This document shows, in pieces, positions 1 through 18,303 of a stretch of DNA of 64,000 bases; the first letter of the stretch is position 1; the number at the start of each line of letters is the position of its first letter. Made by a program: the position numbers and the translations under genes. A model generated the notes under the pieces. That model was not told the DNA's origin, did no database searches, and saw only the letters and a list, made by a program, of their open reading frames with translations. Origin of the DNA: a virus; the IMG/VR virus record IMGVR_UViG_3300031951_000074, positions 27,615 to 91,614 of that record, one strand, 5' to 3'.

Positions 1-2
1 AA

Positions 3-80
3 AACGGCGATGCGTTGAACGTGTTGGCTGTGGAAGGAAGCGTAACAACTCTGAGCTCTATACAAGGTGGTCAGTTCTGA
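3..80 (+). CDS. C-terminal end of an upstream gene (partial)
   Basis: The window opens inside a reading frame that ends NGDALNVLAVEGSV...SIQGGQF with TGA at 78-80. Only 25 residues are visible, so no function can be assigned. By position it is the gene before the fibre cluster and is probably a virion protein. Its stop codon lies inside the terminator hairpin that follows. Confidence 0.6.
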   Translation, partial: NGDALNVLAVEGSVTTLSSIQGGQF

Positions 81-91
81 CCACCTTTTTA
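64..91 (+). terminator. Rho-independent terminator overlapping the upstream stop codon
   Basis: AAGGTGGTCAG pairs perfectly with CTGACCACCTT (64-74 with 77-87) and a T run follows. The tight hairpin contains the TGA of the partial gene, so that gene and the fibre genes are probably separate transcription units. Confidence 0.8.
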
Positions 92-137
92 CCTAGTTTT
101 ATTTGACTAGTAGAAACCCACCTTTTTAGGAAAAACA

Positions 138-3100
138 ATGATACCTATTATTCTAAAAAAATCTAATGTACCATCAAAAGCCCCAACCACAGCAGATTTG
201 GACTGGGGCGAACTTGCTGTAAACTATACAGATGGTAAGTTGTATTATAAAAAACAAAGCGACAACGATCCAACTGGAACAATAGATTATTTTACCTCTT
301 CTACGGCTGCAACCGGAGTAAATAATGGAGCTTTAACTCTTGCATCTGCCTCTGGAACTACAAACACAGCCGTAACAATAAATAACGGTACGGGTTTCAC
401 AGCAAATTCTAGTCAGAACATACAGTACACAATAGCAGTAGGTCCAGCACTTACTGCTTTGTCTACTGTTATGTCGCCAAACAATACAGGCTTACTTAAA
501 AAAACCGGCACAGATACTTACACTCTTGATACTACCAACTACTTAACATCTGCTGTTACCAGTGTTAGTGGTACAGGAACAGTCGCCGGCTTGTCACTGA
601 GTGGAACTGTGACTTCTACAGGAAACCTAACACTGTCCGGTACGTTGAGTGCTCCAGTGACTAGTATCAATGACAGTACTGTGGTAGGTAGAAACTTAGT
701 AAAGCTAGCAGATCCAAATAATATTACATTTTTAAGAGTTAACGCAGACAATACAGTCAGTGCTTTAAATGCAGCTGACTTTAGAACTGCAATTGGTGCT
801 GGTACGGGCGGAGGCGGTACCGGCACTGTTACCAGTGTTAGTGGCACAGGAACAGTAGCCGGCTTGTCATTGAGCGGAACAGTCACTACTACAGGAAACT
901 TGAGTTTGAGTGGTACTTTGAGTGCTCCAGTGAGCAGCATCAACGACAGTACGACAGTTGGTAGAAACTTAGTAAAACTAACAGATCCAGGCAGCATCAC
1001 CTTTTTAAGAGTTAATGCAGACAACACAGTCAGTGCTCTTAACGCAACTGACTTTAGAACTGCAATTGGGGCCGGTACGGGCGGAGGTACTGGCACTGTT
1101 ACCAGTGTTAGTGGTACAGGAACGGTGGCTGGTTTGTCTCTCACTGGAACAGTCACTACTACAGGAAACTTGAGTTTGAGTGGTACTTTGAGTGCTCCAG
1201 TGAGCAGCATCAACGACAGTACGACAGTTGGTAGAAACTTAGTAAAGCTAGCAGATCCAGGTGCTGTTACATTTTTAAGAGTTAATGCAGACAACACAGT
1301 CAGTGCGTTGAATGCAACTGACTTTAGAACTGCAATTGGGGCAGGTACTGGAGGCGGTGGAGTTATTCAAGTAACTGCTTCTGCCCCAATATCCAGCACA
1401 GGTGGTAGTACTCCAACAATATCTATAGATCCAGCTACAACTTCTGCTGCAGGCAGCATGAGTGCAGCAGATAAAGCTAAACTAAATGGCATTGAAGCAG
1501 GTGCTCAGGTTAATTTACCAACAAATTTAGGTATAGGTGAACGTACCGGTTTAACTGCAGCTATTACAAGTTCTACTGGTACAAGTGCAATTTTATTTAA
1601 TGCTACAGATACTTTAGCAGGCTTAATGAGTGCAGGAGACAAAATTAAACTAAATGGTATTCCAGCAGGAGGTAATGCAGCTACAAATTTAGGTATAGGT
1701 GAACGTACCGGTTTAACTGTAGCTATTACAAGTTCTACTGGTACAAGTGCAATTTTATTTAATGCTACAGATACTTTAGCAGGCTTAATGAGTGCAGCAG
1801 ATAAAGCTAAACTAAATGGTATTCAAGCAGGAGCAACAGCCAATACAGGAACTGTTGACAGCGTAGCCGGTAAGACAGGCGTAGTTACATTGACCAAAAC
1901 CGATGTTGGGTTAGGTAACGTAGATAATACGTCTGATGCAGACAAGCCAGTAAGTACAGCACAACAAGCTGCTTTAAATCTAAAAGCTAACATTGATTCT
2001 CCAAACTTTACAGGATCTGTAAAAGAAAATAATAATCAAGTATTGCATGCTGGTAACTACAGTGGATACTCGCCAACACTAACCGGAGGTGGAGCAAGTG
2101 GCTCTTGGAGTATTTCTGTTACTGGAAACGCAAGCACTGCTACAACATTGCAAACATCTCGTACAATCAATGGTGTTGCTTTTAACGGTTCTCAAAACAT
2201 TGTTGTTCAAGACAGTACAAAACTTCCACTAACTGGTGGTACATTAACAGGATCTGTAACTTTAAATGGTGGAAGTATTGGGATCGATGTTGCCCCAACA
2301 GATCCGGCCGTTTCAGGCAGATCAATACAAATAGTTAATGGCGGTGGTTTGTTGTGGGCAACAACTGGGAGTTTTGTAGTTGCAAACAATATTACAATAG
2401 ATTCTTCTGGTAATGGTGTTTATCAATTAGCTACTGCTGCTTCTTCGTACTCACAAACTGCTGGCACTCATAGATGGTATACTGCAGCTGGTGGTACAGC
2501 GGGATCTGTGGCTAATATGGTAGAAGGTCTGAGTTTGAATTCAACAGCTCTAGACTCTAAGGTTGCCATCAAAGAAAATAACAACCAAGTATTACATGCT
2601 GGCAACTATAGCAATTATGCAATACCAGCTGTAGCACCTGGCACAAGCGGCAATGTGTTAACTTCCAACGGGTCTAGTTGGACTAGTCAAGCACCATCAG
2701 GAGGTGCTGGAAACTCAGTTAACATACAAGAGTTCTCCACAGTAGGTACTTCTACTTGGACCAAACCAGCAGGTGCCAAGTTAATACATATTATTTTACA
2801 AGCCGGAGGTGGTGGGGGTGGATCGGGACGTGTTCGAGCTTCAGCAAGTTTTAGTACAGAAACTGCTGGAGGAGGCGGCGGAGGTGGTGGAGGCGGTAGA
2901 ACAGAGTTCTTTTTTCCAGCCAGTCTTTTTGCAAATACAGAAAATGTGGAAGTGGGTGCTGGTGGAAGTGGTGCAGCATCACAAACATCAATAACAAGTG
3001 GTAATGCTGGAAGTACGGGTGGCAATTCAACATTTGGAACCACAGTTCGCGCCAGAGCTCGCGGAGGCGTGGGCGGAAACGGAGGCTCGGCAGGTGCTGC

Positions 3101-3566
3101 TACTACTGGAGCACTTGCCGGCGGTGTAACCAGTACAGGAACACCTTCAGGTACTTTTGTCTATTCTGCTTCTGGTGGTACCGGATACAATATTGGTGGT
3201 TCTGGAGGCCGTGGAGGATACAATGGTGGTGGTGGTGGTGGTGGTGGCGGGTATAATTCTAATAGCAGTATCGGCGGTGCTGGAGGTGCTGGAGGCTTGG
3301 GGGGTGCAATTATAGACTCTAGTACTAATAGTAGTGGTGGTGGTGGTGCTGGAGGTGCTTCTGGAAATCCTGGAACTGCCGGCTCTAATGCCACCGATCC
3401 ATTTTTGGGTGGCAGTGGTGGTGGCGGTGGTTCTGGTGGGCAGCCCGGCGCCGCAGGTGGAATACCTGGCGGGGGTGGCGGAGGAGGTGGAGCCGGTTCA
3501 AATGCCGTTTCTGGAGCAGGTGGTAATGGTGGGCATGGTTTTGTTCGCATAACTACATATTTCTGA
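138..3566 (+). CDS. Large tail fibre / adhesin with internal repeats and Gly-rich tip
   Basis: 1142-residue structural protein. The N-terminus (GELAVNYTDGKLYYKK) is a fibre-attachment module that recurs in the gene at 9161. Residues about 135-410 hold three near-identical repeats of about 95 residues (GTVTSVSGTGTVAGLSL... to FRTAIGAGTGG), followed by shorter repeats around LNGIEAGAQ and LNGIPAGG. The last 270 residues, starting near STWTKPAGAKLIHIILQ, form a polyglycine-rich domain like phage adhesin tips (Gly_rich_2-type) and end FVRITTYF. It probably binds the host surface. The nucleotide repeats (for example 886-960 and 1146-1220) are nearly identical and invite recombination. Start chosen at ATG after AGGAAAAACA. 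Confidence 0.85.
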   Translation: MIPIILKKSNVPSKAPTTADLDWGELAVNYTDGKLYYKKQSDNDPTGTIDYFTSSTAATGVNNGALTLASASGTTNTAVTINNGTGFTANSSQNIQYTIAVGPALTALSTVMSPNNTGLLKKTGTDTYTLDTTNYLTSAVTSVSGTGTVAGLSLSGTVTSTGNLTLSGTLSAPVTSINDSTVVGRNLVKLADPNNITFLRVNADNTVSALNAADFRTAIGAGTGGGGTGTVTSVSGTGTVAGLSLSGTVTTTGNLSLSGTLSAPVSSINDSTTVGRNLVKLTDPGSITFLRVNADNTVSALNATDFRTAIGAGTGGGTGTVTSVSGTGTVAGLSLTGTVTTTGNLSLSGTLSAPVSSINDSTTVGRNLVKLADPGAVTFLRVNADNTVSALNATDFRTAIGAGTGGGGVIQVTASAPISSTGGSTPTISIDPATTSAAGSMSAADKAKLNGIEAGAQVNLPTNLGIGERTGLTAAITSSTGTSAILFNATDTLAGLMSAGDKIKLNGIPAGGNAATNLGIGERTGLTVAITSSTGTSAILFNATDTLAGLMSAADKAKLNGIQAGATANTGTVDSVAGKTGVVTLTKTDVGLGNVDNTSDADKPVSTAQQAALNLKANIDSPNFTGSVKENNNQVLHAGNYSGYSPTLTGGGASGSWSISVTGNASTATTLQTSRTINGVAFNGSQNIVVQDSTKLPLTGGTLTGSVTLNGGSIGIDVAPTDPAVSGRSIQIVNGGGLLWATTGSFVVANNITIDSSGNGVYQLATAASSYSQTAGTHRWYTAAGGTAGSVANMVEGLSLNSTALDSKVAIKENNNQVLHAGNYSNYAIPAVAPGTSGNVLTSNGSSWTSQAPSGGAGNSVNIQEFSTVGTSTWTKPAGAKLIHIILQAGGGGGGSGRVRASASFSTETAGGGGGGGGGGRTEFFFPASLFANTENVEVGAGGSGAASQTSITSGNAGSTGGNSTFGTTVRARARGGVGGNGGSAGAATTGALAGGVTSTGTPSGTFVYSASGGTGYNIGGSGGRGGYNGGGGGGGGGYNSNSSIGGAGGAGGLGGAIIDSSTNSSGGGGAGGASGNPGTAGSNATDPFLGGSGGGGGSGGQPGAAGGIPGGGGGGGGAGSNAVSGAGGNGGHGFVRITTYF

Positions 3567-3574
3567 GGTTATTT

Positions 3575-3805
3575 ATGAGAAAACAATTTTTATTAAACAC
3601 AGATGGATCTGTTCCAGCAGGTGTAGATATAAACCTGTTAAGATCTGAAAATATACCATTAGTAATTCCTACCCCAGTACCAGTACAGTCAGGTATGGTT
3701 GCAGTAGAACAAGACCCTAAACCTGACGAGTATGGCGTACTGCGGCAAGTTTGGAAACTGGAACCTTTTGTTGCAGAAAATCAACCAACCCCTGAAGAAC
3801 TATAA
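3575..3805 (+). CDS. Small protein after tail fibre
   Basis: 76 residues, starting 8 bp after the fibre with TGAGGT as ribosome binding site. The C-terminus (YGVLRQVWKLEPFVAENQPTPEEL) has the look of short fibre-associated or chaperone-like proteins that follow fibre genes, with a Trp-Pro-rich acidic tail, but no family is firmly recognised. It is probably translationally coupled to the adhesin. Function unknown; a fibre-assembly role is inference from position. Confidence 0.65.
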   Translation: MRKQFLLNTDGSVPAGVDINLLRSENIPLVIPTPVPVQSGMVAVEQDPKPDEYGVLRQVWKLEPFVAENQPTPEEL

Positions 3806-3836
3806 AACCCAAACCAAGCGTTCCATATTTTTTAGC

Positions 3837-3865
3837 TTGTACACTTGAGTACGATATGTTATAAT
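3837..3865 (+). promoter_or_regulatory. Sigma70 promoter before the gene at 3913
   Basis: TTGTAC (3837-3842), a 17 bp spacer, and a perfect TATAAT (3860-3865). It sits in the 107 bp gap between two genes and can drive the gene at 3913 and the fibre genes beyond. Confidence 0.75.
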
Positions 3866-3912
3866 ACAAACAAATACCAGCATAATTTTTAACCTTTTTA
3901 AAGGGCTATTAA

Positions 3913-4269
3913 ATGACAACAGAATTCAAAATTGTTATCGATAACATTCGTACTCATGATGTTCAAAACTTTGAAAAGGTAGTAAAACAAATTGATTTTA
4001 CTATTAGTGGTACAAAACAATCAGAAACATTCTCTTTACCACAAAGCTTGGTTTTGACGGATAAACAAATAGAAAACTTTATTCCTTTTGAAGATCTTAC
4101 AGAAGCCTGGGCCGTAGACTTGATTGAAAAGAACTTTGATAACATAGAACAAGTAAAGTCACACATTGAATACGTACTAGATACTATGGTTTTAAAAAAG
4201 AATCTAGTTCAACAAAGTCTACCTTGGGCTTCGGCAAGCAATGCTGTACGCCCTTTTGTTCTTTTTTAA
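3913..4269 (+). CDS. Hypothetical protein
   Basis: 118 residues, not recognised. It begins MTTEFKIVIDNIRTHDVQNFEK and ends ASNAVRPFVLF. It is soluble, with no signal peptide or membrane segment. It is the first gene behind its own consensus promoter and lies just before the beta-propeller fibre gene. Function unknown. Confidence 0.7.
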   Translation: MTTEFKIVIDNIRTHDVQNFEKVVKQIDFTISGTKQSETFSLPQSLVLTDKQIENFIPFEDLTEAWAVDLIEKNFDNIEQVKSHIEYVLDTMVLKKNLVQQSLPWASASNAVRPFVLF

Positions 4270-4281
4270 AGGGTATGATTT

Positions 4282-6321
4282 ATGAAAGTTATTAAACCAA
4301 TTGAGGTGTTACGTGATACGTACACAGATGTAAACACAAGAGATGTTGTACCAGCTTGGAACAGCGGTACTACATACGGAAGCAGTAGTACTTTTGATAA
4401 AGTATGGGTACAGTATCTTGGAGTGGTGTACGAGAGCATCAAGCCCGTCAATTTAAACAACACACCGTCTAGTGGCAGTACTTGGTGGAGAACTGTAACC
4501 ACAACGTCCTCAGACGATTTTGCCGGTTCTGTTTATAACAGTGGTACTACCTACAGTACCGGAGACATAGTATACTACCAAACAAGTAGTACCGACTGGC
4601 CAAAGTATTATCAGAGTTTGCAAAATACCAACTTAAACAAAACACCACCAGATAATTTGACTGGAACAACACCCTACTGGCTAGATCTGGGATACACAAA
4701 CACAAGTAAATTATACGATATTGAAACCAGTACACAGACCATTACAACCGACGAACTAATAACCACTTTTACTGCCCGCAAAGTTACTAGTGGTGGAATA
4801 TTTGGTGCTTATGGTTCGAGAGTTTTATTAACAGCAAAATCAGAACGCAACCTGTACTCCAAAATAGACTGGAATACTACTGCGTCAGTTCATACTACAA
4901 CTCCAACACTGAACTCAATGGTTTTTGCAGCAGACAAAAACATATTGTTGTTGTGCGGTAACAGCGGGTTTTTGAAGTACAGCAAAGACAATGGAGTTAC
5001 TTGGATTAATTGTGTTACTCCTGCCACAGCGCCAAATTTAAAAACACTGAGTTACAGCAAGGATAACTCTGTTTTTATAGCTGCAGGTACGAGTAGTGAT
5101 TCAAGCACTGCCATAATTTGGAAGAGTTTGGATGGTATTAACTGGACTAATATAACAGGATTGCCAACAGGTAGTGTTTCCTTAAACAAGGCTATCTGGA
5201 TAAAGCAATTAAACAAGTTTGTAATTGCTGCCAGTAATGGAAATATTTATACTTCAGATGGTACAGCCACAACATGGTTAGCTTCAAGCGTCGGGGCTGG
5301 TACGACCGACTTGGTAGGAATTGTTTATAATCCAGCAAATGGACTAGTTCACGTAATAGGAAATAATACACTAAGATATAGCAGCGATTTGAATACTTGG
5401 ACAGCTATAATGTGGCTAAACAATATAAGAGATATTGCAGTTGTAAATAACAGTGATTATTCAACAACCGGTTCTACAACACAATATTGTATAGTAGCTG
5501 GAACTAGTGGGTCGCTGAGTACTACTCATAAGAGCTCTGATGGTATCACTTGGTCAACAGCTGCAATACTGACTGGAATTCCAACAAATTATGTATCTTC
5601 TGGGGTAACATACTGCTATACAGAATCTAAGTGGGTATTAAACATAGGTGGGTATATACTAACCTGGGATGGCAGCGCGTCTACTAGTTATACAGATATT
5701 ACACCCAGCAACAATCCAAATACCAATCGTACAAGAGTGTACTACAATAACTCAACAGACAGTCTTTTCTTTTTTGGTAATAATAGCACTCTAGTAACAA
5801 GCCCAAACATTTACTTTAAAGAGTACAACTTGAATAGTTCCCTAGTAGATAATTGGTATGATTATTTTTACAAAGATTACACTCTTTTGAGCGAGTCAAT
5901 TTTTGAAGATATTCCTGTTTATACGCGTACAAGAATTACTATTTGTGTTATTGGAGATGTAGTGCGGTGTGGTATTGCTTTTGCTGGTATAAGTAACAAA
6001 ATAGGAACAACACAATATGGAGCGTCAGCCGGTATTATTGACTACAGCAAAAAAGAAACAGACGAGTTTGGTACCACTACGTTTATTAAGCGAGCTTTTA
6101 GCAAGCGAATGAATGTAAACTTAATTTTACTGAGCGCTGATTTGTACAGAGTACAAAAAGTTTTAAGCGATGTTCGTGCTACTCCGTGTATTTGGATAGG
6201 AAGTGACACAGATATTTACAAGAGTCTTACCATGTATGGGTATTACAGAGATTTTAGCTTGGAAATTCCATATCCAGAATATTCCTATTGCAGCCTACAA
6301 GTAGAAGGATTAACAGAATGA
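4282..6321 (+). CDS. Tail protein with carbohydrate-binding modules and beta-propeller
   Basis: 679 residues. The N-terminal 150 contain two tandem modules of chitin/carbohydrate-binding (CBM5/12-like) style: WNSGTTYGSSSTFDKVWVQY, and YNSGTTYSTGDIVYYQ followed by NKTPPDN and YWLDLG. Residues about 150-500 carry repeated Asp-box/BNR-like strands (SKDNGVTWINC, KSLDGINWTNI, SSDGITWSTA), which indicates a sialidase-fold beta-propeller. The C-terminal about 150 residues look like a separate structural domain. It probably binds or probes cell-surface glycans at the tail tip; no hydrolase residues could be assigned. It ends in an ATGA overlap with the next gene. Confidence 0.8.
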   Translation: MKVIKPIEVLRDTYTDVNTRDVVPAWNSGTTYGSSSTFDKVWVQYLGVVYESIKPVNLNNTPSSGSTWWRTVTTTSSDDFAGSVYNSGTTYSTGDIVYYQTSSTDWPKYYQSLQNTNLNKTPPDNLTGTTPYWLDLGYTNTSKLYDIETSTQTITTDELITTFTARKVTSGGIFGAYGSRVLLTAKSERNLYSKIDWNTTASVHTTTPTLNSMVFAADKNILLLCGNSGFLKYSKDNGVTWINCVTPATAPNLKTLSYSKDNSVFIAAGTSSDSSTAIIWKSLDGINWTNITGLPTGSVSLNKAIWIKQLNKFVIAASNGNIYTSDGTATTWLASSVGAGTTDLVGIVYNPANGLVHVIGNNTLRYSSDLNTWTAIMWLNNIRDIAVVNNSDYSTTGSTTQYCIVAGTSGSLSTTHKSSDGITWSTAAILTGIPTNYVSSGVTYCYTESKWVLNIGGYILTWDGSASTSYTDITPSNNPNTNRTRVYYNNSTDSLFFFGNNSTLVTSPNIYFKEYNLNSSLVDNWYDYFYKDYTLLSESIFEDIPVYTRTRITICVIGDVVRCGIAFAGISNKIGTTQYGASAGIIDYSKKETDEFGTTTFIKRAFSKRMNVNLILLSADLYRVQKVLSDVRATPCIWIGSDTDIYKSLTMYGYYRDFSLEIPYPEYSYCSLQVEGLTE

Positions 6322-7565
6322 TTACAACAATTTCAACCCTACCACAATCACCAAATCGTAACGATCCTGCAACTTTTAGTGACAAAGCAGACGCTCTTTT
6401 GGGGGCAATGCCTACTCTTGTAACAGAACTAAATAGTTTTGTTAACGAAGTTAATACACTCAGTTTTAAAACTGCTTGTAAAGCCGCTACACTCGCTGCA
6501 ATTACATTAAGTGGTACCCAAACAATTGATGGGCAAAACATAGTTGCAGGCGACAGAGTATTGGTAAAAAATCAAGCCAGTCTGGCAGAAAACGGTATTT
6601 ATACAGCAAGTATTAATGCTTGGACAAGAGCACCAGACATGGATACAGTTGCTGAAGTTGCTGGCAGCTTTGTACCTGTTACTTTTGGGGCACAGCAGGG
6701 TGGAAAGATCTACTATACCACTTTTAATGCCACTGGAGCTACTTTGGGAACAACAGCTATTCCTTGGAATAGTTTAACAGAAGCCAGTATTACTGGAATA
6801 GGTACTGTTGCAGTTGCAAATGGCGGCACTGGTATTGCAAGTTATGCAATTGGTGATTTGATTTACGCCAGCGGTACAACTACTCTTGTAAAGCTAGCAG
6901 CAGCAGCGAGTGGTAATGTTTTAAAAAGTGGCACTGCGCCTAGCTGGGGCAAAGTAGCTTTAACATCTGATGTGTCTGGTACGCTTCCTGTGGCGTCTGG
7001 CGGTACTGGCGCAGCCACTCTGACCGCGAACAACGTCTTGCTGGGCAACGGCACCTCTGCTGTTCAGACGGTAGCGCCTGGTACGGCGGGCAATCTTTTG
7101 ACCTCTGTTGGTGGCACTTGGGCAAGCGCTCCTCCACCGGCGGGTGGAGTGACAAGTCTCAACAGCCAGACAGGTGCTGTTGTAACGACCGGATTTGGTG
7201 ATATCGGTAGTGTTGCGGTACTGATGATTGCAACTAATACCAATGTGGCGGTTGGTTCGACTGTTGCGGGTAGCGATCTTCGATACGGTTGGAATCCCAA
7301 TTTTGGTGCAATGACCTACGGAGGTCTTACCGATTTTGCGACCAATCGTGGAAACAGTTCGGCAACATATAACGGCGGTGGCACTGCCCCGGCCGGGGGT
7401 GTCGGAACTTGGCGAAAGATAAGCTCTGGGAATACGTATTTTTCATCTGGTGGGTCTTACGCGGGAGTCAATTTAGTTTCTGCCTGCTGCGGCTCTTTTT
7501 TACAAGTTCAAGTATTTTCGGCTTCTTACGTTTGGGCCGCAGCCCTCTACGTCCGTGTTTCTTGA
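6318..7565 (+). CDS. Mosaic tail fibre protein
   Basis: 415 residues from ATG at 6318, which overlaps the previous stop (ATGA) and is preceded by GAAGGA; an upstream in-frame ATG at 6288 lacks such a site. The first about 210 residues (TIDGQNIVAGDRVLVKNQ, ENGIYTASINAW) are a widespread fibre module with AT-rich codons like the neighbours. From about 6950 the DNA turns clearly GC-rich and the protein switches to a module common in Burkholderiales phage fibres (LPVASGGTGAATLTANNVLL, APGTAGNLLTSVGGTW). This points to a recombination joint inside the gene. The C-terminal about 130 residues are probably the receptor-binding tip. Confidence 0.82.
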   Translation: MITTISTLPQSPNRNDPATFSDKADALLGAMPTLVTELNSFVNEVNTLSFKTACKAATLAAITLSGTQTIDGQNIVAGDRVLVKNQASLAENGIYTASINAWTRAPDMDTVAEVAGSFVPVTFGAQQGGKIYYTTFNATGATLGTTAIPWNSLTEASITGIGTVAVANGGTGIASYAIGDLIYASGTTTLVKLAAAASGNVLKSGTAPSWGKVALTSDVSGTLPVASGGTGAATLTANNVLLGNGTSAVQTVAPGTAGNLLTSVGGTWASAPPPAGGVTSLNSQTGAVVTTGFGDIGSVAVLMIATNTNVAVGSTVAGSDLRYGWNPNFGAMTYGGLTDFATNRGNSSATYNGGGTAPAGGVGTWRKISSGNTYFSSGGSYAGVNLVSACCGSFLQVQVFSASYVWAAALYVRVS

Positions 7566-7573
7566 GGTGCATC

Positions 7574-7846
7574 ATGTTCAATGTTCAATATGCAACTGAT
7601 CTGGTCTGGGCAGATGCGGATCAAACCAACTTCAAATGCAACGTCAAGCTGGCCGAGTTTGATGAAGTCATGCCGTGCGGTGTAAACGCAACGGATCGGT
7701 ACGCACACATCAAAGAGCTTTGGACCAGGGGACTCGCGGGAGAGTACGGCCCCATCGCGCCCTATGTCGCGCCGCCTGAGCCGGAGCCCGAGTCCGTTGC
7801 ACCTGTACAGGGACAGCCTACGCAGACGGGTGCGGAGCAGTTCTGA
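7574..7846 (+). CDS. Small fibre-associated protein in imported cassette
   Basis: 90 residues, GC-rich, with GAGG before ATG at 7574. It contains YAHIKELWTRGLAGEYGPIA followed by a Pro/Glu tail. Small proteins of this kind commonly follow fibres in Burkholderiales phages. Its stop overlaps the next start (TGATG), so translation is coupled. Function not known; a role in fibre folding is inference. Confidence 0.75.
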   Translation: MFNVQYATDLVWADADQTNFKCNVKLAEFDEVMPCGVNATDRYAHIKELWTRGLAGEYGPIAPYVAPPEPEPESVAPVQGQPTQTGAEQF

Positions 7847-8124
7847 TGAAATCTGTTTCCTCCAAATACAGCGTGACCTACGACGGTGCGGTGATGAACA
7901 TCTACCACGCCAACAAGGGCGAAGGTCTTCCGGCTCACGAACATCGGTACTCGCACCTGACCATGTGCCACTCCGGTCGCTGTGTTGTGCGGAAAGAAAA
8001 GGGCGAGCGCATCATCGACAAGAACTCTACGCCGCTGAACTTGGTTGCCGGGGAGTGGCATGAGATCGAGGCGCTGGAGGATGATACGGTGTTTGTAAAC
8101 GTCTTTGCAGAGGGAAAGCAGTGA
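7846..8124 (+). CDS. Small cupin-fold protein
   Basis: 92 residues. The pattern LPAHEHRYSHLTMCHSGRC, then LVAGEWHEIEALEDDTVFVN, matches the two half-motifs of a single-domain cupin with His residues placed for metal binding. Cupins of this size sit next to fibre and lysis genes in many phages; their role there is not established. It is in the GC-rich cassette with the two genes before it, and its stop overlaps a GTG that begins a truncated reading frame. Confidence 0.75.
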   Translation: MKSVSSKYSVTYDGAVMNIYHANKGEGLPAHEHRYSHLTMCHSGRCVVRKEKGERIIDKNSTPLNLVAGEWHEIEALEDDTVFVNVFAEGKQ

Positions 8125-8255
8125 ACTTCGATGCAGCTTTCAACACCCTTCTCAATCCAGCACCCAACAGCCACCAACTTCGATATAGTATCACTATCGA
8201 TTATATAAGAATAAATAAAATACACCCACTAACCCTGGGTGTATTTTTTACTTGA
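8121..8255 (+). pseudogene. Truncated start of an endolysin-like gene at the cassette edge
   Basis: GTG at 8121 overlaps the cupin stop (GTGA) and opens VNFDAAFNTLL. This resembles the N-terminus of GH108-type phage endolysins (typically NFD.AF..LL followed by GHEGGY). The catalytic Glu motif never appears: after about 11 codons the GC-rich DNA gives way to AT-rich sequence and the frame runs out at 8255 inside the next promoter. It is best read as the cut-off end of an imported fibre-cupin-lysin cassette. Eleven residues are thin evidence, so this is a moderate call. Confidence 0.4.
8217..8249 (+). terminator. Rho-independent terminator
   Basis: TACACCCA (8221-8228) pairs with TGGGTGTA (8236-8243) around a 7-nt loop, followed by six T. 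It closes the imported cassette's transcript directly before the next promoter. Confidence 0.82.
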
Positions 8256-8280
8256 CAATTTTTACCCTGTATAGTATAAT
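8252..8280 (+). promoter_or_regulatory. Perfect-consensus sigma70 promoter
   Basis: TTGACA (8252-8257), 17 bp, TATAAT (8275-8280). Both boxes match the consensus at all 12 positions, the strongest promoter in the window. It directs the run of virion genes starting at 8325. Confidence 0.9.
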
Positions 8281-8324
8281 TATACCTATAAAAAAATCTA
8301 TACTTGTTTTAAGCAGGAGTTATT

Positions 8325-8909
8325 ATGACAGCACCTACCCGACTAAATTTAAAGATTTATCAGGGCAGTACCTTTAGGCAAATCTTACGTTGGGAAAGTG
8401 CTACAAAGGTATATGTTCCTGTAACCTCTATTACAAACGCAGCACCAATGGTAATTACAGCCAATGCTCATGGAGCCCCTCAAGGCTGGAGAGTAAAACT
8501 CAGCAATGTGAATGGAATGAAAGAAGCCAATAATCTAGACTATGTAATAGCCACCGGAACCACTACAAACACCGTTACTATAAACAGTGTAAACAGTATT
8601 GGTTTCGCTACTTATACTAGCGGAGGCGTACTGGAGTACAATCAGCCCGTTGATTTAAGTGGTGTAACAGCAAGAATGCAGATCAGACCAAAAGTAGACA
8701 GTGATCAAATATTAGACACTTTAACAACAGAAAATAATAAGATTGTTTTAGATAACGTTTTAAAAACTATTACAATAGAAATAGACGAATCTGTAACTGC
8801 ATCGTACTCTTTTAAGAGTGCAGTCTATGATCTAGAAGTCGTCAAAAACAACGATGTTATCCCATTTTTAACAGGAACAATCCTGCTTACTAAAGAGGTA
8901 ACACGATGA
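8325..8909 (+). CDS. Baseplate/tail structural protein (BppU N-terminal-like)
   Basis: 194 residues. The sequence order YQGSTFRQILRW, PVDLSGVTARMQIRPK, LDTLTTENNKIVLDN, ITIEIDESVTASY, VYDLEVV, FLTGTILLTKEVTR matches the beta-sandwich module found in many phage tail proteins and in BppU-like baseplate proteins. An inserted strand region at about residues 35-110 carries an AHGAPQGW turn. A preceding AGGAG supports the ATG. It overlaps the next gene by 4 bp. It probably joins fibres to the tail; assignment to the exact family is tentative. Confidence 0.7.
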   Translation: MTAPTRLNLKIYQGSTFRQILRWESATKVYVPVTSITNAAPMVITANAHGAPQGWRVKLSNVNGMKEANNLDYVIATGTTTNTVTINSVNSIGFATYTSGGVLEYNQPVDLSGVTARMQIRPKVDSDQILDTLTTENNKIVLDNVLKTITIEIDESVTASYSFKSAVYDLEVVKNNDVIPFLTGTILLTKEVTR

Positions 8910-9151
8910 GCTTTTACACTACTATAGAAAACGATTCAACCTCTAGTCTAGTAGTTATTGATGATACCAGAGAAATCATTATTGTTAGTGGAGCTATTGG
9001 CCCAAAGGGGGATAGTGGCGGAACCAACATAGGAAGTTATCCGGTTGTAGTATCAAATATTCAGGGCAATGATCTATTGTTGTTTAGCCAACCACAAAAT
9101 GCTTGGGTAAACGTACCTCAGACTTCAATAACAGACGGCGGAACTTTTTAA
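8906..9151 (+). CDS. Small tail-associated protein
   Basis: 81 residues starting in an ATGA overlap with the preceding gene. It contains a short collagen-like turn (GAIGPKGDSGG) after residue 30, then LLFSQPQNAWVNVPQ. Proteins of this type follow the preceding family in many environmental phages. Structural role inferred from position. Confidence 0.65.
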   Translation: MSFYTTIENDSTSSLVVIDDTREIIIVSGAIGPKGDSGGTNIGSYPVVVSNIQGNDLLLFSQPQNAWVNVPQTSITDGGTF

Positions 9152-9160
9152 GGAGGTTAG

Positions 9161-10444
9161 ATGGCGAATGTAATCAAATTAAAAAATTCCGGAAATCCAG
9201 GGGTTATTCCAACACCAGTACAGTTAGTACATGGCGAATTGGCTATTAACTATGCTGATGGTAAGTTATATTACAAAAAATCAGATAATACCATAGGCAC
9301 AATAACCGCACAAGGCGGAAGCGGTTATGCACTAGCAGGTAACAACACAGATATTACCAGTCTTACAGGTATTACTGGTAATATCTCAACAATAAGTTAT
9401 GTAGACTTTAATTTAAATAGTAATGTTACTGACCAAGAAGGCCGGTTGTATTGGAATAACCAAGACAATACCTTGGATATTTCTCATTCTAGTACATTTA
9501 AATCTGCTGTCAATCAAACTTCAGTAGTTCCTCCATGTTTAAACAACAGTGGAACAGCGATTGCAAAAGGCAATCTTGTAATGGCCACAGGCAGTCAGGG
9601 CGATAAAATAACTATCGCAAAGGCTGTTACCAATGGAACTATAGCAGCACAGTACATGCTGGGTGTTGCAGGCGAAAATATAACATCAGGACAAGAATTT
9701 TCGCATATCATAACAACTGGTGTTGTTAGAGACATAAACACTGAAATTTGGCCTGTTGGAACTGTGTTATACCCAGATCCTGCAGTGCCTGGCGGCTTGA
9801 CGAGTGTTGTTCCAACAGCCCCAAGTCTAAAAACTCCAATTGCAATAGTACTTCGTTCGCATCAAAATACTGGGCGAATTTATGTACGAATGACTTGGGC
9901 CAGTGGTTTAGGAATCACAGACTCAAATGTTCAAGTCTCCAATGTACAAAATCAAAACGTTCTTCAGTATAACTCACTGTTGGGCGTTTGGCAGAATGTT
10001 CAAGATTTGTACTTAAATGGAGAGTTAAGCCACAAAGGATTGGTGTTAACAGAAGGTAATAAAATAGATCAGGTACTGACTATTACCAAAACTCTTACAC
10101 TTACAACAGACTGGCAAGACACAGGAATAGATTCCACAGACTTAGAAACTGGCACTTATATAGTCCAACTTTACGCAAACGACACTGGCTCAGGCGGAAC
10201 AAATAGTAATGAGTATTACAGTGGCACAATGAGTTGGTACAGTGGACAAACAAATAGTTCATTAGAACTACCAACAGACGAAATTGTGTTACACAGAGCA
10301 GGGGGCAGTGGCGACGGAGCCATGTACCTTAGAACCTATAGAACACCACTAGCGGATCCTAGTGATTTAAAACTTCAAATCTACTCAAACACGGCCAGTG
10401 CATCTAGCAGCAACTACGTGTTTAAATTTAGAAAAATGATATAA
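9161..10444 (+). CDS. Tail fibre protein
   Basis: 427 residues with a very strong ribosome site (AAGGAGG) before ATG. The N-terminus (KLKNSG...HGELAINYADGKLYYKK) is the same attachment module as in the 138 gene. The middle (residues about 125-245) contains a conserved fibre domain (NSGTAIAKGNLVMATGSQGD, then TGVVRDINTEIWPVGTVLYP). The C-terminal about 130 residues (TKTLTLTTDWQDTGI, ELPTDEIVLHRAG) look like a trimeric tip. It is one of at least seven fibre-like proteins in the locus. Confidence 0.82.
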   Translation: MANVIKLKNSGNPGVIPTPVQLVHGELAINYADGKLYYKKSDNTIGTITAQGGSGYALAGNNTDITSLTGITGNISTISYVDFNLNSNVTDQEGRLYWNNQDNTLDISHSSTFKSAVNQTSVVPPCLNNSGTAIAKGNLVMATGSQGDKITIAKAVTNGTIAAQYMLGVAGENITSGQEFSHIITTGVVRDINTEIWPVGTVLYPDPAVPGGLTSVVPTAPSLKTPIAIVLRSHQNTGRIYVRMTWASGLGITDSNVQVSNVQNQNVLQYNSLLGVWQNVQDLYLNGELSHKGLVLTEGNKIDQVLTITKTLTLTTDWQDTGIDSTDLETGTYIVQLYANDTGSGGTNSNEYYSGTMSWYSGQTNSSLELPTDEIVLHRAGGSGDGAMYLRTYRTPLADPSDLKLQIYSNTASASSSNYVFKFRKMI

Positions 10445-10458
10445 CTTAGGAGCACGAC

Positions 10459-12357
10459 ATGGCTTTTAAAATTAAAGACGGTGTTAGAATAGGCACCACG
10501 GACATATTTGATAATGCTGGAACGTTACTAGTTAACGCACCAACTGCAACCAAGTGGCTCAACGCAAGAACCATCACTCTTGGTGGTGATCTGAGCGGTA
10601 GCGTGTCCGTAGACGGGTCACAAAACGTTACACTAACTGCAACTATTGCTGCAGACTCTGTTGCTTTAGGCACAGATACAACAGGTAATTACGTAAGTCT
10701 GGTACAAAGCAGTGGAACTGGTATTGTTGTTAGTGGAACCGCTGGAGAAAATGCAACATTTTCAGTTGCCCACGCAGACACCTCAACACAAGCTACTGTA
10801 ACCAACAGTGGCAGAACATACCTTCAAAGCATTACACTAGATGATTTTGGACACATTACTGCAGTAACTAGTGCAACAGAGCCAACAGAAGGCAGTGGTA
10901 CTCTTACCCTAAACATAGGCAGTGCTGGAGCAACTGGTAGTTCTGTAACAATTGCTACAGGTACTGGATTTAATGCTAACAGCAGCTCAAACGTTACATA
11001 CAGTGTAAGCGTTGGTCCAGCCCTGAGCGGATTAGCCACAACAATGACAGGTGCTGGGTCAGGCTTCTTGAAAAAGACCGCGGCCGATACTTATACAATC
11101 GACACAAACACGTACTTAACGGCCGAATCAGACACGTTGGCCACAGTAACAGGACGTGGGGCAACAACAAGTACTGCATTGAGCTTAACCAACTCAACAG
11201 CAAGCTCTAATACAACCACTGGTGCTCTAGTAGTAACTGGCGGTGTTGGTATTGGCGGTGCTTTAAACGTTGGCGGAAACACAGGAGTTACCGGCAACTT
11301 AACCATCACCGGCAACTTGATTGTAAATGGCACAACCACAACAGTCAATTCAACCACAACAACCTTAGACGATCCCATTATTACTCTGGGTGGCGATAGT
11401 GCTCCTGGTACTGACGACAACAAAGATCGTGGTGTTGAGTTCCGTTGGCACAATGGTACCTCCGCTAAAATCGGTTTCTTTGGGTACGACGACAGCACAG
11501 GCAAGTTTACCTTTATTCCAGATGCTACAAACTCTTCAGAAGTGTTCTCTGGCACTACTGGAGAAATTGATGCAAAGATTGATTGGAGTAACATTCTTAA
11601 TACTCCAGCCGCAGCAACAGTAAATAACGGTACATTAACATTAACAGCATCAGCTGGTGCAACAAACACTTCAGTTACTATTGGTACAGGTACTGGCTTT
11701 AGTGCAAACGATTCAAACAACGAAACTTATGACATTGATGTAGGCCCTGCATTAAGCAACTTGGCTACAACAATGACTGGTGCTGGTAGTGGTTTTTTAA
11801 AGAAAACAGCACAAGACACTTATACTGTTGATACAAACACATACTTAACGACCGAGTCCGACACATTATCTAGTGTAACAGCCCGGGGAAATACTACTAC
11901 TGATATCATCATCGCTGCAAATACTACACAAAGTACCAGCTCTCTTACAGGTGCTATTGTAGTAGGCGGTGGTTTGGGTGTTGCAAAGAACATTACAACA
12001 AAAGCATCGGTTGTATATAACAATTCAAGTGACGCAAAAATCAGTGAAGATTCTGGTCTATCAGCAACAGTAGCAACCACAACTACTACAGATTTGGATA
12101 CTTGGGCAGTTGCAACTTATCGCAGTGCACGTTACTTGGTACAGATCACACAAGGATCAAACTATCAAGTTAGCGAAGTATTGGTATTACACAACGGTAC
12201 TACTACAACAATGACTGAATATGCTGTATTGGAAAGCAACGGTGCCTTGGGTACATTGACCAGCGACATAAATGCAGGTAATGCCCGCCTACGAGTTACG
12301 ATGGGCACCTCAACTTCTGCTACTGTCAAGATTCATCGCACTCTGGTAACAGTATAA
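10459..12357 (+). CDS. Tail fibre protein with duplicated modules
   Basis: 632 residues beginning MAFKIKDGVRIGTTDIFDNAG. There are two long internal repeats (LSNLATTMTGAGSGFLKKTA and its copy LSGLATTMTGAGSGFLKKTA, about 240 residues apart), each followed by YT(I/V)DTNTYLT. Between them lies VTGGVGIGGALNVGGNT with a TTTTLDDPIITLGGD strand block common in fibres of marine and freshwater myophages. The C-terminal about 110 residues form a compact domain (ISEDSGLSATVATTTTTDLD) ending RTLVTV. AGGAG precedes the ATG. Confidence 0.82.
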   Translation: MAFKIKDGVRIGTTDIFDNAGTLLVNAPTATKWLNARTITLGGDLSGSVSVDGSQNVTLTATIAADSVALGTDTTGNYVSLVQSSGTGIVVSGTAGENATFSVAHADTSTQATVTNSGRTYLQSITLDDFGHITAVTSATEPTEGSGTLTLNIGSAGATGSSVTIATGTGFNANSSSNVTYSVSVGPALSGLATTMTGAGSGFLKKTAADTYTIDTNTYLTAESDTLATVTGRGATTSTALSLTNSTASSNTTTGALVVTGGVGIGGALNVGGNTGVTGNLTITGNLIVNGTTTTVNSTTTTLDDPIITLGGDSAPGTDDNKDRGVEFRWHNGTSAKIGFFGYDDSTGKFTFIPDATNSSEVFSGTTGEIDAKIDWSNILNTPAAATVNNGTLTLTASAGATNTSVTIGTGTGFSANDSNNETYDIDVGPALSNLATTMTGAGSGFLKKTAQDTYTVDTNTYLTTESDTLSSVTARGNTTTDIIIAANTTQSTSSLTGAIVVGGGLGVAKNITTKASVVYNNSSDAKISEDSGLSATVATTTTTDLDTWAVATYRSARYLVQITQGSNYQVSEVLVLHNGTTTTMTEYAVLESNGALGTLTSDINAGNARLRVTMGTSTSATVKIHRTLVTV

Positions 12358-12387
12358 TTTTAACAACCTCGTGGATAGGGAAACGGG

Positions 12388-13812
12388 ATGGCTAACGAAT
12401 TCAAAGTAAAAAACGGGATTAAATTTCCAGACAACACAATCCAAACTACCGCTGCTGCCGGCAGCGGTACTAGTTCATTAGTAAGCGGCACAGCAGTAAA
12501 TAGTACTAGTGGCACAACAATTGATTTTACCAGTATTCCATCTTGGGTAAAACGCGTTACTGTTATGTTTAGTGCTGTAAGTACAAGTGGTACTTCGTCT
12601 TTATTGGTTCAAATCGGCGATAGTGGCGGAATCGAAACCACAGGGTACGATAGTTATGCATTGTACGCCCCTTCTAGTGGTGGATTTATTTCGTCCACTT
12701 CTGGATACGTTCTAGAACCAACAGGATATTTGAGCGGCACAATCGCCAGGTATGGTATGATTGTACTAGCCAATTTAACAGGTAACAACTGGGTAGCATC
12801 TTCGAATTTGTACGAAGGATCTGGCGGTGTTGTAGCAATGGCCGCCGGAGGAAAAACCCTTTCTGCAGTATTGGATCGTGTTCGTGTTACCACAGTTAAT
12901 GGTACCGATACTTTTGACGGCGGCACTATCAACATATTATATGAAGGTGGTGGCGTTGGAGGCACGCTGGATTCAATAACAGACGTTAGCGCCCCGGCTC
13001 CTTCTAATGGCCAAGCACTGGTTTGGAACAGTACTACTAGTCAATGGGAAGCTCAAACTGTAAGTGGTGGTGGTGGAACAGGTATTTCTTGGAGTAAAAA
13101 GACTAGTAACTATACTGCGTCAAGCGGAGACTTTTTATTAACCGATACAGGATCTGGCAGTTTTACCGTAACATTGCCGTCTTCACCAACTACTGGAAAT
13201 TTTGTTGTAGTAGCAGATGCCAATGATTGGAAAACAAACAATCTAATAATTGCAAGAAACGGTAGTACAATAGAAGGATTATCTGAAGACTTGTATTTAA
13301 ATATAAAAGGAATCCAGGTAAGTATTATATTTGATGGCACTACTTGGGAAGTGTTTGCTTTTGCAGCACCTTCTATAGATATTACAAACGATACTTCTAC
13401 CAATACTACACAGTATCTTACAATGTCGCGAGCCACAAGTGGGGCTCTGAACGGTGCCTATGTTAGCAATAGTGGTTTAACATTTAATCCAAGTACTGGT
13501 ACTCTGTCTTCTACCAATTACAACTCTTTATCAGATAAAAACCTTAAAAAGAATATACAGCCACTAGAAGATTATGGCTTTATATTAGATCAATTAAACC
13601 CTGTAAAATTTCAATGGAAGTCGAACGACAAAACAGGATTTGGTTTAATAGCTCAAGAGGTTGAAAAAGTATTACCAGAAATAGTAGAAGATAATGATAC
13701 TTATAAAACAGTAAGCTATCAACAGCTTATACCATTTTTATTAGCGTGTGTTAAACAACAGCAAAAAGAACTAGAAGAATTAAAGGAGATAGTAAATGGC
13801 AACATTAACTGA
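12388..13812 (+). CDS. Tail fibre with C-terminal S74 intramolecular chaperone
   Basis: 474 residues. The N-terminus MANEFKVKNGIKFPDNTIQTT is a fibre-attachment motif. The C-terminal about 90 residues begin YNSLSDKNLKKNIQPL and contain FQWKSNDKTGFGLIAQEVEKVLP, the hallmark of peptidase S74 (endosialidase-type intramolecular chaperone), ending in a coiled coil. In this family a Ser-Lys dyad, here within SDKNLKK, cuts the chaperone off after trimer folding, so the mature fibre probably ends near residue 378. The 3' end overlaps the next gene by 17 bp. Confidence 0.88.
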   Translation: MANEFKVKNGIKFPDNTIQTTAAAGSGTSSLVSGTAVNSTSGTTIDFTSIPSWVKRVTVMFSAVSTSGTSSLLVQIGDSGGIETTGYDSYALYAPSSGGFISSTSGYVLEPTGYLSGTIARYGMIVLANLTGNNWVASSNLYEGSGGVVAMAAGGKTLSAVLDRVRVTTVNGTDTFDGGTINILYEGGGVGGTLDSITDVSAPAPSNGQALVWNSTTSQWEAQTVSGGGGTGISWSKKTSNYTASSGDFLLTDTGSGSFTVTLPSSPTTGNFVVVADANDWKTNNLIIARNGSTIEGLSEDLYLNIKGIQVSIIFDGTTWEVFAFAAPSIDITNDTSTNTTQYLTMSRATSGALNGAYVSNSGLTFNPSTGTLSSTNYNSLSDKNLKKNIQPLEDYGFILDQLNPVKFQWKSNDKTGFGLIAQEVEKVLPEIVEDNDTYKTVSYQQLIPFLLACVKQQQKELEELKEIVNGNIN

Positions 13813-14071
13813 TTTATTGGGCTCTACTTTTAGTGGGTTGGGCTTTACCTTTTATCCTTCTTTTAATTTAGCAACTGTTTACAATAAAAATGACGTAGTT
13901 CATTACAGTACAAATGGAAATACTTATGTGGCTATAGCTAACGGTATATCCACGGGAACTACTCCAGACCTGGATACTTCTAACTGGGCACTGTTTGTTC
14001 CAAAGGGTGATACGGGCGGTGGTGGAATTACAACAGGAAAAGCCATTGCAATGGCCATAGTTTTTGGATAA
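13796..14071 (+). CDS. Small tail protein with carbohydrate-binding-like fold
   Basis: 91 residues. The central part (YNKNDVVHYSTNGNTYVAI, then TPDLDTSNWALF) follows the chitin/carbohydrate-binding (CBM5/12-like) pattern also seen at 4282, then a collagen-like PKGDTGGGG tail. The start lies inside the previous gene's 3' end, preceded by AAAGGAGATAG. Likely a virion decoration or receptor-contact protein. Confidence 0.65.
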   Translation: MATLTDLLGSTFSGLGFTFYPSFNLATVYNKNDVVHYSTNGNTYVAIANGISTGTTPDLDTSNWALFVPKGDTGGGGITTGKAIAMAIVFG

Positions 14072-14083
14072 GGATAATAAAAA

Positions 14084-14449
14084 ATGGCAAATCCTAATAT
14101 TGTAAACGTAGCAACCATACTTGGAAGAACTGTTGGTGCTGCTTTAACTACAACTAGTGCCGACATTGTAACCAACAGTGCGGGTAGTAACAAGATTTTT
14201 AAAATCAACTCCGTCTATGTGTCTAATGTAGACGGAACCAATAATGCGACTGTTGATGTTACTTTTTACGATGCCAGCGCAACAACAAGTTATTATTTAG
14301 CGGATGCGATTGTTGTGCCTGTTACATCAACCTTAAAAGTAGTAACAAAAGATGCTTCTATTTACTTAGAAGAGGGCGATAAAATTGCAGCACTAGCCAG
14401 TGCTAATAATGATTTACAGATCGTTGTTAGTTACGAGGAGATCAGCTAA
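14084..14449 (+). CDS. Conserved virion-like protein
   Basis: 121 residues of predicted beta-rich protein (MANPNIVNVATILGRTVGAAL, then IFKINSVYVSNVDGTN, YLEEGDKIAALASANNDLQI). Similar small proteins occur among structural genes of T4-like cyanophages and other aquatic phages. No enzymatic motif. The stop overlaps the next ATG by 1 base (TAATG), indicating coupled translation. Confidence 0.65.
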   Translation: MANPNIVNVATILGRTVGAALTTTSADIVTNSAGSNKIFKINSVYVSNVDGTNNATVDVTFYDASATTSYYLADAIVVPVTSTLKVVTKDASIYLEEGDKIAALASANNDLQIVVSYEEIS

Positions 14450-15366
14450 TGAACGGTAATTTAATAGGTGCTGTAAATTTACCAACTATTAGTTCTGCTT
14501 CAGGTGTATGGACTATTGAAGAAGTAAAACTAGCACGGCAGCAGAGTATTTGGCCAGGACTCATAGTTATAGACTACTTGATAGTTGCAGGCGGTGGCGG
14601 TGGTTCTGATTATGGTGCTGGTGGCGCCGGCGGATATAGAACAGGTACTATTAATACTGGTGTGTTTAATAACAGTTTTACTATTACTGTTGGTGCAGGT
14701 GGTTCCGGTGCAGCCACAGGCTCTAACGGATCAGACTCTGTACTAGGTACATTTGTATCATCAGGCGGCGGTAGAGGGGGAAAAGCAAACACAAGCCCGG
14801 GGCAAAATGGCGGATCTGGTGGCGGTGGTGGTTATGCAAGTACAGGCAATCCCGGAGGTTTGGGTAACACCCCAGCAACTACTCCATCACAAGGTAATAA
14901 CGGTGGAGCAGGTTATAATCTAAACGGTGCACCATTTGCAGCAGGTGGCGGAGGTGGTGCAGGTGCAGTGGGTCAGGCAGGTCAATCCACCATTGGTGGT
15001 GCGGGTGGTGCGGGGTCTTCTTCAACAATAACAGGTTCGTCAGTCACTTACGCAGGAGGTGGTGGGGGAGGACATTTCAGCGGAACCGGAGGAAATGCAA
15101 GTGGTGGTACCGGTGGGGGTGGTACAGGTGGTAAAAATAGCTCTGGTACAACTGCAGGCACTGCAAATACTGGCGGCGGCGGCGGCGGTTCTGGTGTAAC
15201 TAGCGGTTCTGGAGGATCTGGTGGTTCGGGGGTAGTAATTATAGCATATCTTGATTCTTTTCCGGCATTAAGTAGTATAGATGTTGGGTTAACATACGAC
15301 CAACCTTCAAGATCAGGTTACAGAGTATATAGATTTACTGCAGGTACCGGAACCGTTACGGTTTAA
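14449..15366 (+). CDS. Glycine-rich adhesin
   Basis: 305 residues. After about 40 residues comes VIDYLIVAGGGGGSDYGAGGAGGYR, then about 170 residues of Gly-Gly-Gly blocks separated by short strands (SFTITVGAGGSG, VTYAGGGGGG), closing with SGVVIIAYLDSFP and a small C-terminal cap. This is the polyglycine architecture of phage tail-tip adhesins and of the C-terminus of the 138 gene. Probable role: host receptor recognition. Confidence 0.8.
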   Translation: MNGNLIGAVNLPTISSASGVWTIEEVKLARQQSIWPGLIVIDYLIVAGGGGGSDYGAGGAGGYRTGTINTGVFNNSFTITVGAGGSGAATGSNGSDSVLGTFVSSGGGRGGKANTSPGQNGGSGGGGGYASTGNPGGLGNTPATTPSQGNNGGAGYNLNGAPFAAGGGGGAGAVGQAGQSTIGGAGGAGSSSTITGSSVTYAGGGGGGHFSGTGGNASGGTGGGGTGGKNSSGTTAGTANTGGGGGGSGVTSGSGGSGGSGVVIIAYLDSFPALSSIDVGLTYDQPSRSGYRVYRFTAGTGTVTV

Positions 15367-15381
15367 ATAAAGAGAATAAAA

Positions 15382-15756
15382 ATGGCACACTATGCTTTTA
15401 TAGATGACAATAATATAGTCACAGAGGTTATTGTAGGAAAAGATGAGAATGAAGGTTTAATTAATTGGGAGGAATACTACGGTAATTTTAGAAAAAAACG
15501 CTGCCTTCGCACTTCTTTTAATACATACGGTAATAAGCACTTAAATAATGGCACACCGTTTAGGAAAAATTATGCAGGTGTAGGATATACCTATGACACT
15601 CGACTAGATGCATTCATTCCACCTAAACCATATAGCAGTTGGGTATTAGATGAAGAAACATGTATTTGGCAAGCACCTGTTCCCATGCCGAATGACGGAT
15701 CGTCGTATATTTGGGATGAAGAATCAACGTCTTGGAAAAATAATAATATCAATTAA
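15382..15756 (+). CDS. Conserved phage protein of fibre locus
   Basis: 124 residues. The order MAHYAFIDDNNIVTEVIVGKDE, NWEEYYGN, CLRTSFNTYGNKH, GTPFRKNYAGVGYTYD, DAFIPPKPYSSWVLDEETC, WDEESTSW belongs to a well-conserved small protein found beside fibre genes in many cyanophages and pelagiphages. Its biochemical role is not known to me; it is Trp-rich and probably structural. Confidence 0.75.
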   Translation: MAHYAFIDDNNIVTEVIVGKDENEGLINWEEYYGNFRKKRCLRTSFNTYGNKHLNNGTPFRKNYAGVGYTYDTRLDAFIPPKPYSSWVLDEETCIWQAPVPMPNDGSSYIWDEESTSWKNNNIN

Positions 15757-15782
15757 ATAAGCCGAGTTCAAAAGGAGCGAAG

Positions 15783-16313
15783 ATGGCTATTAAAGTACAA
15801 AATACTACTGTAATAAATGACAGTAGACAGTTAGAAAATATAAGTAATTTAAAGACTGTTAACAGTCAAAGTATATTGGGGGCTGGCGATATTTCTATTA
15901 CTGGTATTCCAACAGCCGGTACAACGGGACAAGTACTTACAAAAAATAGTTCTACAAACTACGATGTTTCTTGGATAAATCCAGGAAATGAAGTAACCTC
16001 AACTGTTACCAGTAGTGCAGGTGCTGCTACCATAAATACCAGTCTAGCAACTGTATTTTTGCATTCTTTAACAGAGAATACCACATATACATTTTCTAAT
16101 CCTCCTGCAAGCGGAACTGGATATACTATTACTTTAAAAATAGTACAAAACAGCACTCCTCGTACAATTACTTGGCCAGCCAGTGTAAAATGGGTAGCTG
16201 CATCACCGCCAACACTATCAACAGGAAGCGGCGACGTTGACGTATTTGCGTTTTTTACGCATGATGCAGGAACTAACTGGTATGGTTTTGTTGCTGGACA
16301 GGATCTGTCATGA
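15783..16313 (+). CDS. Short tail fibre protein
   Basis: 176 residues. Starts MAIKVQNTTVINDSRQLENI, a fibre-attachment N-terminus, followed by SQSILGAGDISITG and a fibre motif (TAGTTGQVLTKNS). The second half is a compact beta domain with TLKIVQNSTPRTITWPASVKW, a module widespread in phage fibres. Preceded by AAAGGAG. Its stop overlaps the next start (ATGA). Confidence 0.75.
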   Translation: MAIKVQNTTVINDSRQLENISNLKTVNSQSILGAGDISITGIPTAGTTGQVLTKNSSTNYDVSWINPGNEVTSTVTSSAGAATINTSLATVFLHSLTENTTYTFSNPPASGTGYTITLKIVQNSTPRTITWPASVKWVAASPPTLSTGSGDVDVFAFFTHDAGTNWYGFVAGQDLS

Positions 16314-17860: not shown

Positions 17861-17871
17861 AAGGAATAATA

Positions 17872-18303
17872 ATGCATTTAAAAATCCTACCAGACAATTC
17901 TGTATTATTTCCATACAGTTTATCTGATCTATACAACTCAAATCCAAATACAAGTTTTCCCTCAACATTATCAGAAGAACTATTAAATAGTTATAAAATA
18001 TATTCTGTAAAAGCAACTCCACCAATACAAATCGACCCTAAAACGCATAAACTGGTACAAAGTGCAGAAAAAGTAGGTGAAATCTGGACTCAGGTTTGGA
18101 ATACTGAACCACTGAATGTTGAAACCGCCAGCCTAAACGTACGAGCACACAGAAATAAATTGTTAACAAAATCAGACTGGACACAAACAGAAGACAGTCC
18201 TGTTAACAAGGCCTCTTGGAAGACATATCGTCAAGCACTACGAGATATTAGTCTTCAAACCAACTTTCCCCATGAAGTAACGTGGCCGACACCACCAAAT
18301 TGA
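17872..18303 (+). CDS. Tail assembly chaperone-like protein
   Basis: 143 residues. The C-terminal 60 residues (VRAHRNKLLTKSDWTQTEDS, then WKTYRQALRDIS, FPHEVTWPTPP) match the Phage_tail_APC-type domain (R..LL..TDWTQ, YRQALRDI, W P). The N-terminal part carries the usual GEIWTQVWNTEPL strand. Members of this family help fold or attach distal tail fibres. It sits directly after the fibre block, preceded by AAGGAATAA. Confidence 0.8.
   Translation: MHLKILPDNSVLFPYSLSDLYNSNPNTSFPSTLSEELLNSYKIYSVKATPPIQIDPKTHKLVQSAEKVGEIWTQVWNTEPLNVETASLNVRAHRNKLLTKSDWTQTEDSPVNKASWKTYRQALRDISLQTNFPHEVTWPTPPN

Follow-up and report, generated by a model that had tools for sequence, protein, structure and literature searches.

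Small tail-fiber partner proteins of phages carry C-terminal tags that follow the class of the neighboring cupin

The locus studied here raises the question of why a phage tail-fiber tip, accompanied by its small partner and a cupin, should have arrived in the middle of a fiber gene. It lies in a stretch of 64,000 nucleotides (the window; positions 27615 to 91614 of IMG/VR record IMGVR_UViG_3300031951_000074, which is 91,614 bases long). GC content and GC at third codon positions (GC3) rose inside the gene starting at 6318, at ∼6980, and were back down by ∼8160. GC was 0.55 at 6981 to 8124 versus 0.41 window-wide, and this interval was the GC peak among 1,144-base windows (maximum elsewhere, 0.511; z = 4.2). 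GC3 of the individual parts is listed in Table 1; 38 other genes of the window had a GC3 of 0.34 ± 0.08. A preliminary description had noticed the shift within this gene and the return near 8160, and GC and GC3 values confirmed both, with sharp borders. Its estimate of the left border ("near 6950") was sharpened to 6980 to 6986, where donor-like matches begin and the recipient-like match ends.

Table 1. Features of the fiber region, in window positions
Feature	Positions	Strand	Basis
Native N-terminal part of tail-fiber gene, ∼221 residues	6318..6980	+	Match to L084 (6009-6986); GC3 0.23; PHROG matches (tail fiber and other phage structural) covering fiber residues 32-197
Left crossover in conserved fiber linker (..TLPVASGGTG..)	6980..6986	+	Donor-like start at 6980/6981, recipient-like end at 6986
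Imported C-terminal fiber tip, ends ALYVRVS	6981..7565	+	DNA identity 91% to L005, 71% to L013; GC3 0.45
Whole fiber gene	6318-7565	+	Native N-terminal part plus imported tip
Small tail-fiber partner, 90 aa, chaperone-like by position	7574..7846	+	phrog_1795 and phrog_1141 (tail fiber); AF2 head and flexible tail; GC3 0.63
C-terminal tag A of partner, QPTQTGAEQF	7814..7843	+	P-x3-G-x4-end pattern of class-1 partners; codon analysis
Class-1 cupin, 92 aa	7846..8124	+	Weak Pfam Cupin_2 match; AF2; Foldseek cupins; family alignment; GC3 0.72
Cut-off GH108 lysin gene start (V/M-N-F-D-A-A-F)	8121..8142	+	L013 and L015 match in DNA and in protein
Lysin-start frame, GTG start	8121-8255	+	Open to 8255; lysin similarity absent past ∼21 bases
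Terminator-like hairpin, cassette end	8217..8247	.	Scored on - strand; similar hairpins at same place in L151 and L157
Recipient sequence again	8235..8324	+	Matches to L151 and L157 start at 8235/8237
Sigma-70-type promoter TTGACA-N17-TATAAT, 12/12 consensus	8252-8280	+	Located before gene 8325

The relatives of this interval differed from those of its flanks. Inside, donor-like loci matched with 91% DNA identity over 6981 to 8112 (L005), 88% over 7131 to 8127 (L004), and 71% over 6980 to 8142 (L013), whereas the flanks were matched by the recipient-like loci L084, L151, and L157. GC was 58% in L005, L004, and L013, and mostly 58 to 62% in donor-like loci. The fiber region of this phage received a cassette of fiber tip, small partner, and cupin from a GC-rich phage lineage, and both the import in mid-gene and the GC-rich source agree with what had been proposed before. 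The left junction lies within a conserved fiber linker and the right junction just inside a lysin gene. The donor match ended between 8112 (L005) and 8142 (L013), and recipient sequence resumes further on. The right border lies between 8124 and 8235; the hairpin and promoter next to it stand at the same spot in sister phages. A source of 8143 to 8234 was looked for and not found. Both junctions also stand in G011, a second and separate assembly from IMG/VR (36,005 bases; one indel), so that assembly error is hardly their cause. G011 probably represents the same phage population as the window record.

The exchange itself is clean yet ordinary fiber mosaicism. The earlier reading as a host-range exchange found no support beyond the plausibility of such a change in a tip swap. 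The earlier label of a "Burkholderiales-type" tip found no support, as a search of 84,980 prokaryote genomes with six peptide patterns yielded zero relatives of the tip. The record of the sister phage that includes L151 (G009) was 94% identical over window positions 18308 to 27797, yet had a different fiber region; its partner before the shared gene was untagged, and the class-1 cupin was absent from the record. The window's fiber region (1 to 18300) was almost wholly unlike that of G009, save for an island at 8235 to 8987.

At the right end of the cassette, the GTG at 8121 overlaps the cupin stop codon (TGA, 8122 to 8124) and opens a frame of which only ∼21 bases (NFDAAF) are lysin-like. The interpretation of this frame as the cut-off start of a GH108 endolysin held up, as did the suggestion to look for a GH108 gene behind homologous cupins. 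L013 reads MNFDAAFQRVLKHEGGY at its lysin start (Pfam GH108 E value, 9e-28), and L015 has 16 exact bases in common with the lysin start of the window. Intact open reading frames of 158 residues (GH108-type) followed the cupin in L008, L009, and L013, with PF05838 matches at ∼1e-27 in L008 and L013 and a PHROG endolysin match at 8e-52 in L013. The first codons of the window frame thus match GH108 phage lysin genes (PF05838) behind homologous cupins; unlike these, the window keeps only the short start and no catalytic part, and a GH108 domain was not found in its frame, where the first codons alone are present. Truncated lysin forms followed the cupin in L007 and L010, and L015 had a lysin stub, followed by the gene that is found after the cupin in L004 and L005. 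The stubs in L007, L010, L015, and the window mark the lysin start as an apparent recurrent breakpoint of the cassette. That a lysin came next in the donor phage stood only in part: GH108-type genes do follow homologous cupins, but in L005 and L004, the closest donor-like loci, it is another gene that follows the cupin, which indicates that the actual donor is not among the sampled phages.

The family of the cupin, a phage family without a name that is here termed class 1, counted 199 IMG/VR loci in a single scan. An annotated phage collection contributed one match, whose gene carries no annotation, and 84,980 prokaryote genomes searched with two peptide patterns contributed none. The whole 91,614-base record contains one copy. 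The AF2 model of the protein was confident (pLDDT 95.7), the Pfam Cupin_2 match was below the cutoff, and Foldseek returned many cupin fold matches, with CelOCE (9bwi), TM1459 (1vj2), and KdgF (5fpx) as the nearest solved structures. Residues H31, H33, H37, H72, C41, and C46 were invariant in an alignment of 20 diverse members. The predicted barrel and the conserved histidines place the class-1 protein in the cupin superfamily. It resembles CelOCE, TM1459, and KdgF in fold (TM ∼0.72 to 0.78 on the query), in being small and single-domain, and in its conserved histidines; in contrast to them, it is phage-borne and has a tail-fiber protein as genomic partner, and identity is ∼14 to 27%. The invariant histidines suggest metal binding and perhaps catalysis. 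In the GenBank phage genome MW202879.1 (L002), a class-1 cupin gene at 4001 to 4279 is absent from the annotation. A third cupin class (HHFSDGLYAKE..) was observed behind the class-1 cupin or untagged partners (L037, L039, L040, L042, L177; L167, L173, L175, L176), and in L054 an open reading frame resembling a 2OG-oxygenase (4529 to 5026) lies between tagged partner and class-1 cupin.

For comparison, 80 class-1 loci were kept, and nearly all with enough sequence had the gene order fiber, small protein, cupin. By blastp, class-1 partners fell into ten groups, i.e., about ten unrelated families. In the AF2 model of the window's partner, a head (residues 1 to 65, pLDDT ∼90) was followed from residue 71 by a low-confidence coil (tail, ∼54). 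A fold search of the PDB gave no significant match to a solved structural relative, and two head families searched against the phage collection by tblastn had no match there. Common to the unrelated families was a C-terminal motif in exact spacing, QPxxxG[AT]QT[LAFI] (tag A), for which this phage was scanned within the 64-kb window. Third codon positions of the tag were free (Pro, 1.87 of 2 bits; Gly, 1.85 of 2; Gln, 1.0 of 1), with synonymous sites near saturation, which argues for selection on the protein.

Tag A was associated with the cupin. Over six head families, partners with a cupin adjacent or near were tagged in 75 of 82 cases, compared to 1 of 15 with none in the locus (Fisher p = 4e-10, when the no-cupin group also takes in 7 distant cases, of which 4 had the tag, and kinship is ignored). 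Across unrelated heads, the ending of the tag covaried with cupin identity (Spearman 0.59). The tag was usually kept where another gene separates partner and cupin, and L063, L191, and L205 each had several tagged partners and one cupin per phage. In L164, the cupin was lost and the tag cut off. Exceptions were untagged partners with a class-1 cupin in L037, L039, and L079 and the third partner of L205, as well as a tagged partner without a cupin in L166 (a 24-kb contig). Natural fusions of partner and cupin were sought, and none was found. An extra small gene (..YPNSTPEFRMxKKEDGTxxMQVRYINxPMGYTGKW..) was seen between partner and cupin in L014, L016, L023, L025, L033, L035, L063, L073, and L079.

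A second cupin class (C3; 184 loci) had partners ending in IPxx[VI]L (tag B). Among distinct partners abutting class 1, 73 of 80 carried tag A and 0 tag B; among those abutting C3, 0 of 59 carried tag A and 32 of 59 matched tag B strictly, tag B being looser than tag A. Within the single head family T1, 32 members combined a class-1 cupin with tag A and 25 a C3 cupin with tag B (by a looser tag-B pattern), while 7 had neither and 7 were exceptions. The head tree required ∼21 changes of cupin class; its supported branches provided two independent contrasts, both concordant, among loci that are related. In L066 and L162, both tag-cupin pairs stood side by side, in L162 on one head family. Across these sequences, the tag type of a partner followed the class of the neighboring cupin, and the heads appeared exchangeable. 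This pairing was not found in the searchable literature. What is new about the locus is this tag-cupin rule; the preliminary description had mentioned neither the tag nor its pairing with the cupin class.

We favor, with moderate confidence, the reading that the tag is recognized by the cognate cupin as a docking site for a fiber-binding head. The tag would dock exchangeable heads onto the cupin, and partner and cupin would form a split tail-fiber chaperone or tip with the cupin as common hub, standing in for the conserved C-terminal trimerization domain of one-piece Tfa chaperones. Binding, the hub role, and presence in virions are parts of this model that we infer. Docking would explain the joint travel of tip, tagged partner, and cupin. 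Against it counts that tag and cupin are usually neighbors, so that linkage accounts for part of the covariation; the histidines, too, suggest a weakness, since metal-binding or catalytic residues are needless for a pure hub. Rather tentatively, we propose a widespread two-piece chaperone or tip system, in which heads are exchangeable, tags are class specific, and a shared cupin hub may serve several heads per phage.

In known Tfas, a variable head precedes a C-terminal domain that is conserved, helical, and trimerizing (PMC9608196). Like Mu Tfa and Pam3 gp25 (PMC9608196), the partner has a variable, beta-rich N-terminal head and is encoded by a small gene directly after the fiber, and it matched tail-fiber families; the label "chaperone" is taken from this position and from PHROG names. 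In contrast to these proteins, which end in a helical trimerization domain, the partner closes with its tag on a flexible tail, and the cupin comes next as a protein of its own. A C-terminal helical trimerization domain was absent from the partner, where the model has the coil, and a search for the N-terminal fold of Mu Tfa or Pam3 gp25 gave no significant PDB match for its AF2 model, which was of moderate confidence.

Alternatively, the tag might be just a 3' end left attached to the cupin gene when heads are exchanged upstream of it, without a role in trans, while the cupin hitchhikes in an ordinary tip exchange. We consider such plain mosaicism rather unlikely, although most loci have tag and cupin side by side with covarying endings, the whole fiber region is hypervariable between sister phages, and movement of fiber-chaperone modules from phage to phage is known (PMC10579305). 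Host-recognition modules of this kind are shared by Alteromonas phages A5, V22, and P24, which are unrelated (PMC10579305), and there as here, a fiber travels together with its small chaperone among otherwise unrelated phages. The module was inferred there from shared synteny, whereas here the junctions are visible in one genome, the cupin is included, and the tag on the partner is class specific. Mosaicism is at odds with the free synonymous sites, which place the tag under protein-level selection, with the persistence of the tag despite intervening genes and on distant partners, and with the different tag for the second cupin class on the same head family.

The cupin could also be an enzyme with the tag as substrate or tether, modifying either the partner's tagged tail or a sugar on the cell surface close to the fiber tip. 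This appears unlikely: its kinship to enzymes is distant (14 to 27% identity in fold matches), its sequence points to no substrate, and the residues between the fixed tag positions are mostly variable. An enzymatic role would nevertheless fit the invariant HxHx3H...H pattern, the nearest solved relatives (the sugar-acting CelOCE and KdgF and the manganese-containing cupin TM1459), the 2OG-oxygenase-like gene of L054, and the fixed position of the tag relative to the C-terminus. Finally, an RNA signal, with the tag as by-product of a ribosome-binding site and overlap for the cupin start, is disfavored as very improbable. The two genes do usually overlap as TGATG (as in the window) or ATGA, and GGAG stands at ribosome-binding distance in some of the tags, that of the window included. 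However, the free third codon positions break any GGAG, tags also occur on partners not directly before a cupin, and the Gln-Pro and C-terminal residues would be left unexplained.

If the tag-cupin pairing is true, it would provide a sequence rule that pairs tail-fiber partners with their cupin, a role for hundreds of unnamed phage genes, and a way for phages to keep fiber modules compatible while swapping host-recognition parts.

Outside the fiber region, the window contains a permuted tmRNA of betaproteobacterial type at 48150 to 48576 on the - strand (RF01850, E value of 5e-34; tag ANDEVFALAA) and ∼18 tRNA genes within 47.9 to 61.2 kb, which suggests that the recipient phage infects a betaproteobacterium. 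A precedent for a permuted tmRNA in phages is the Methylophilales phage Melnitz (PMC9004378).
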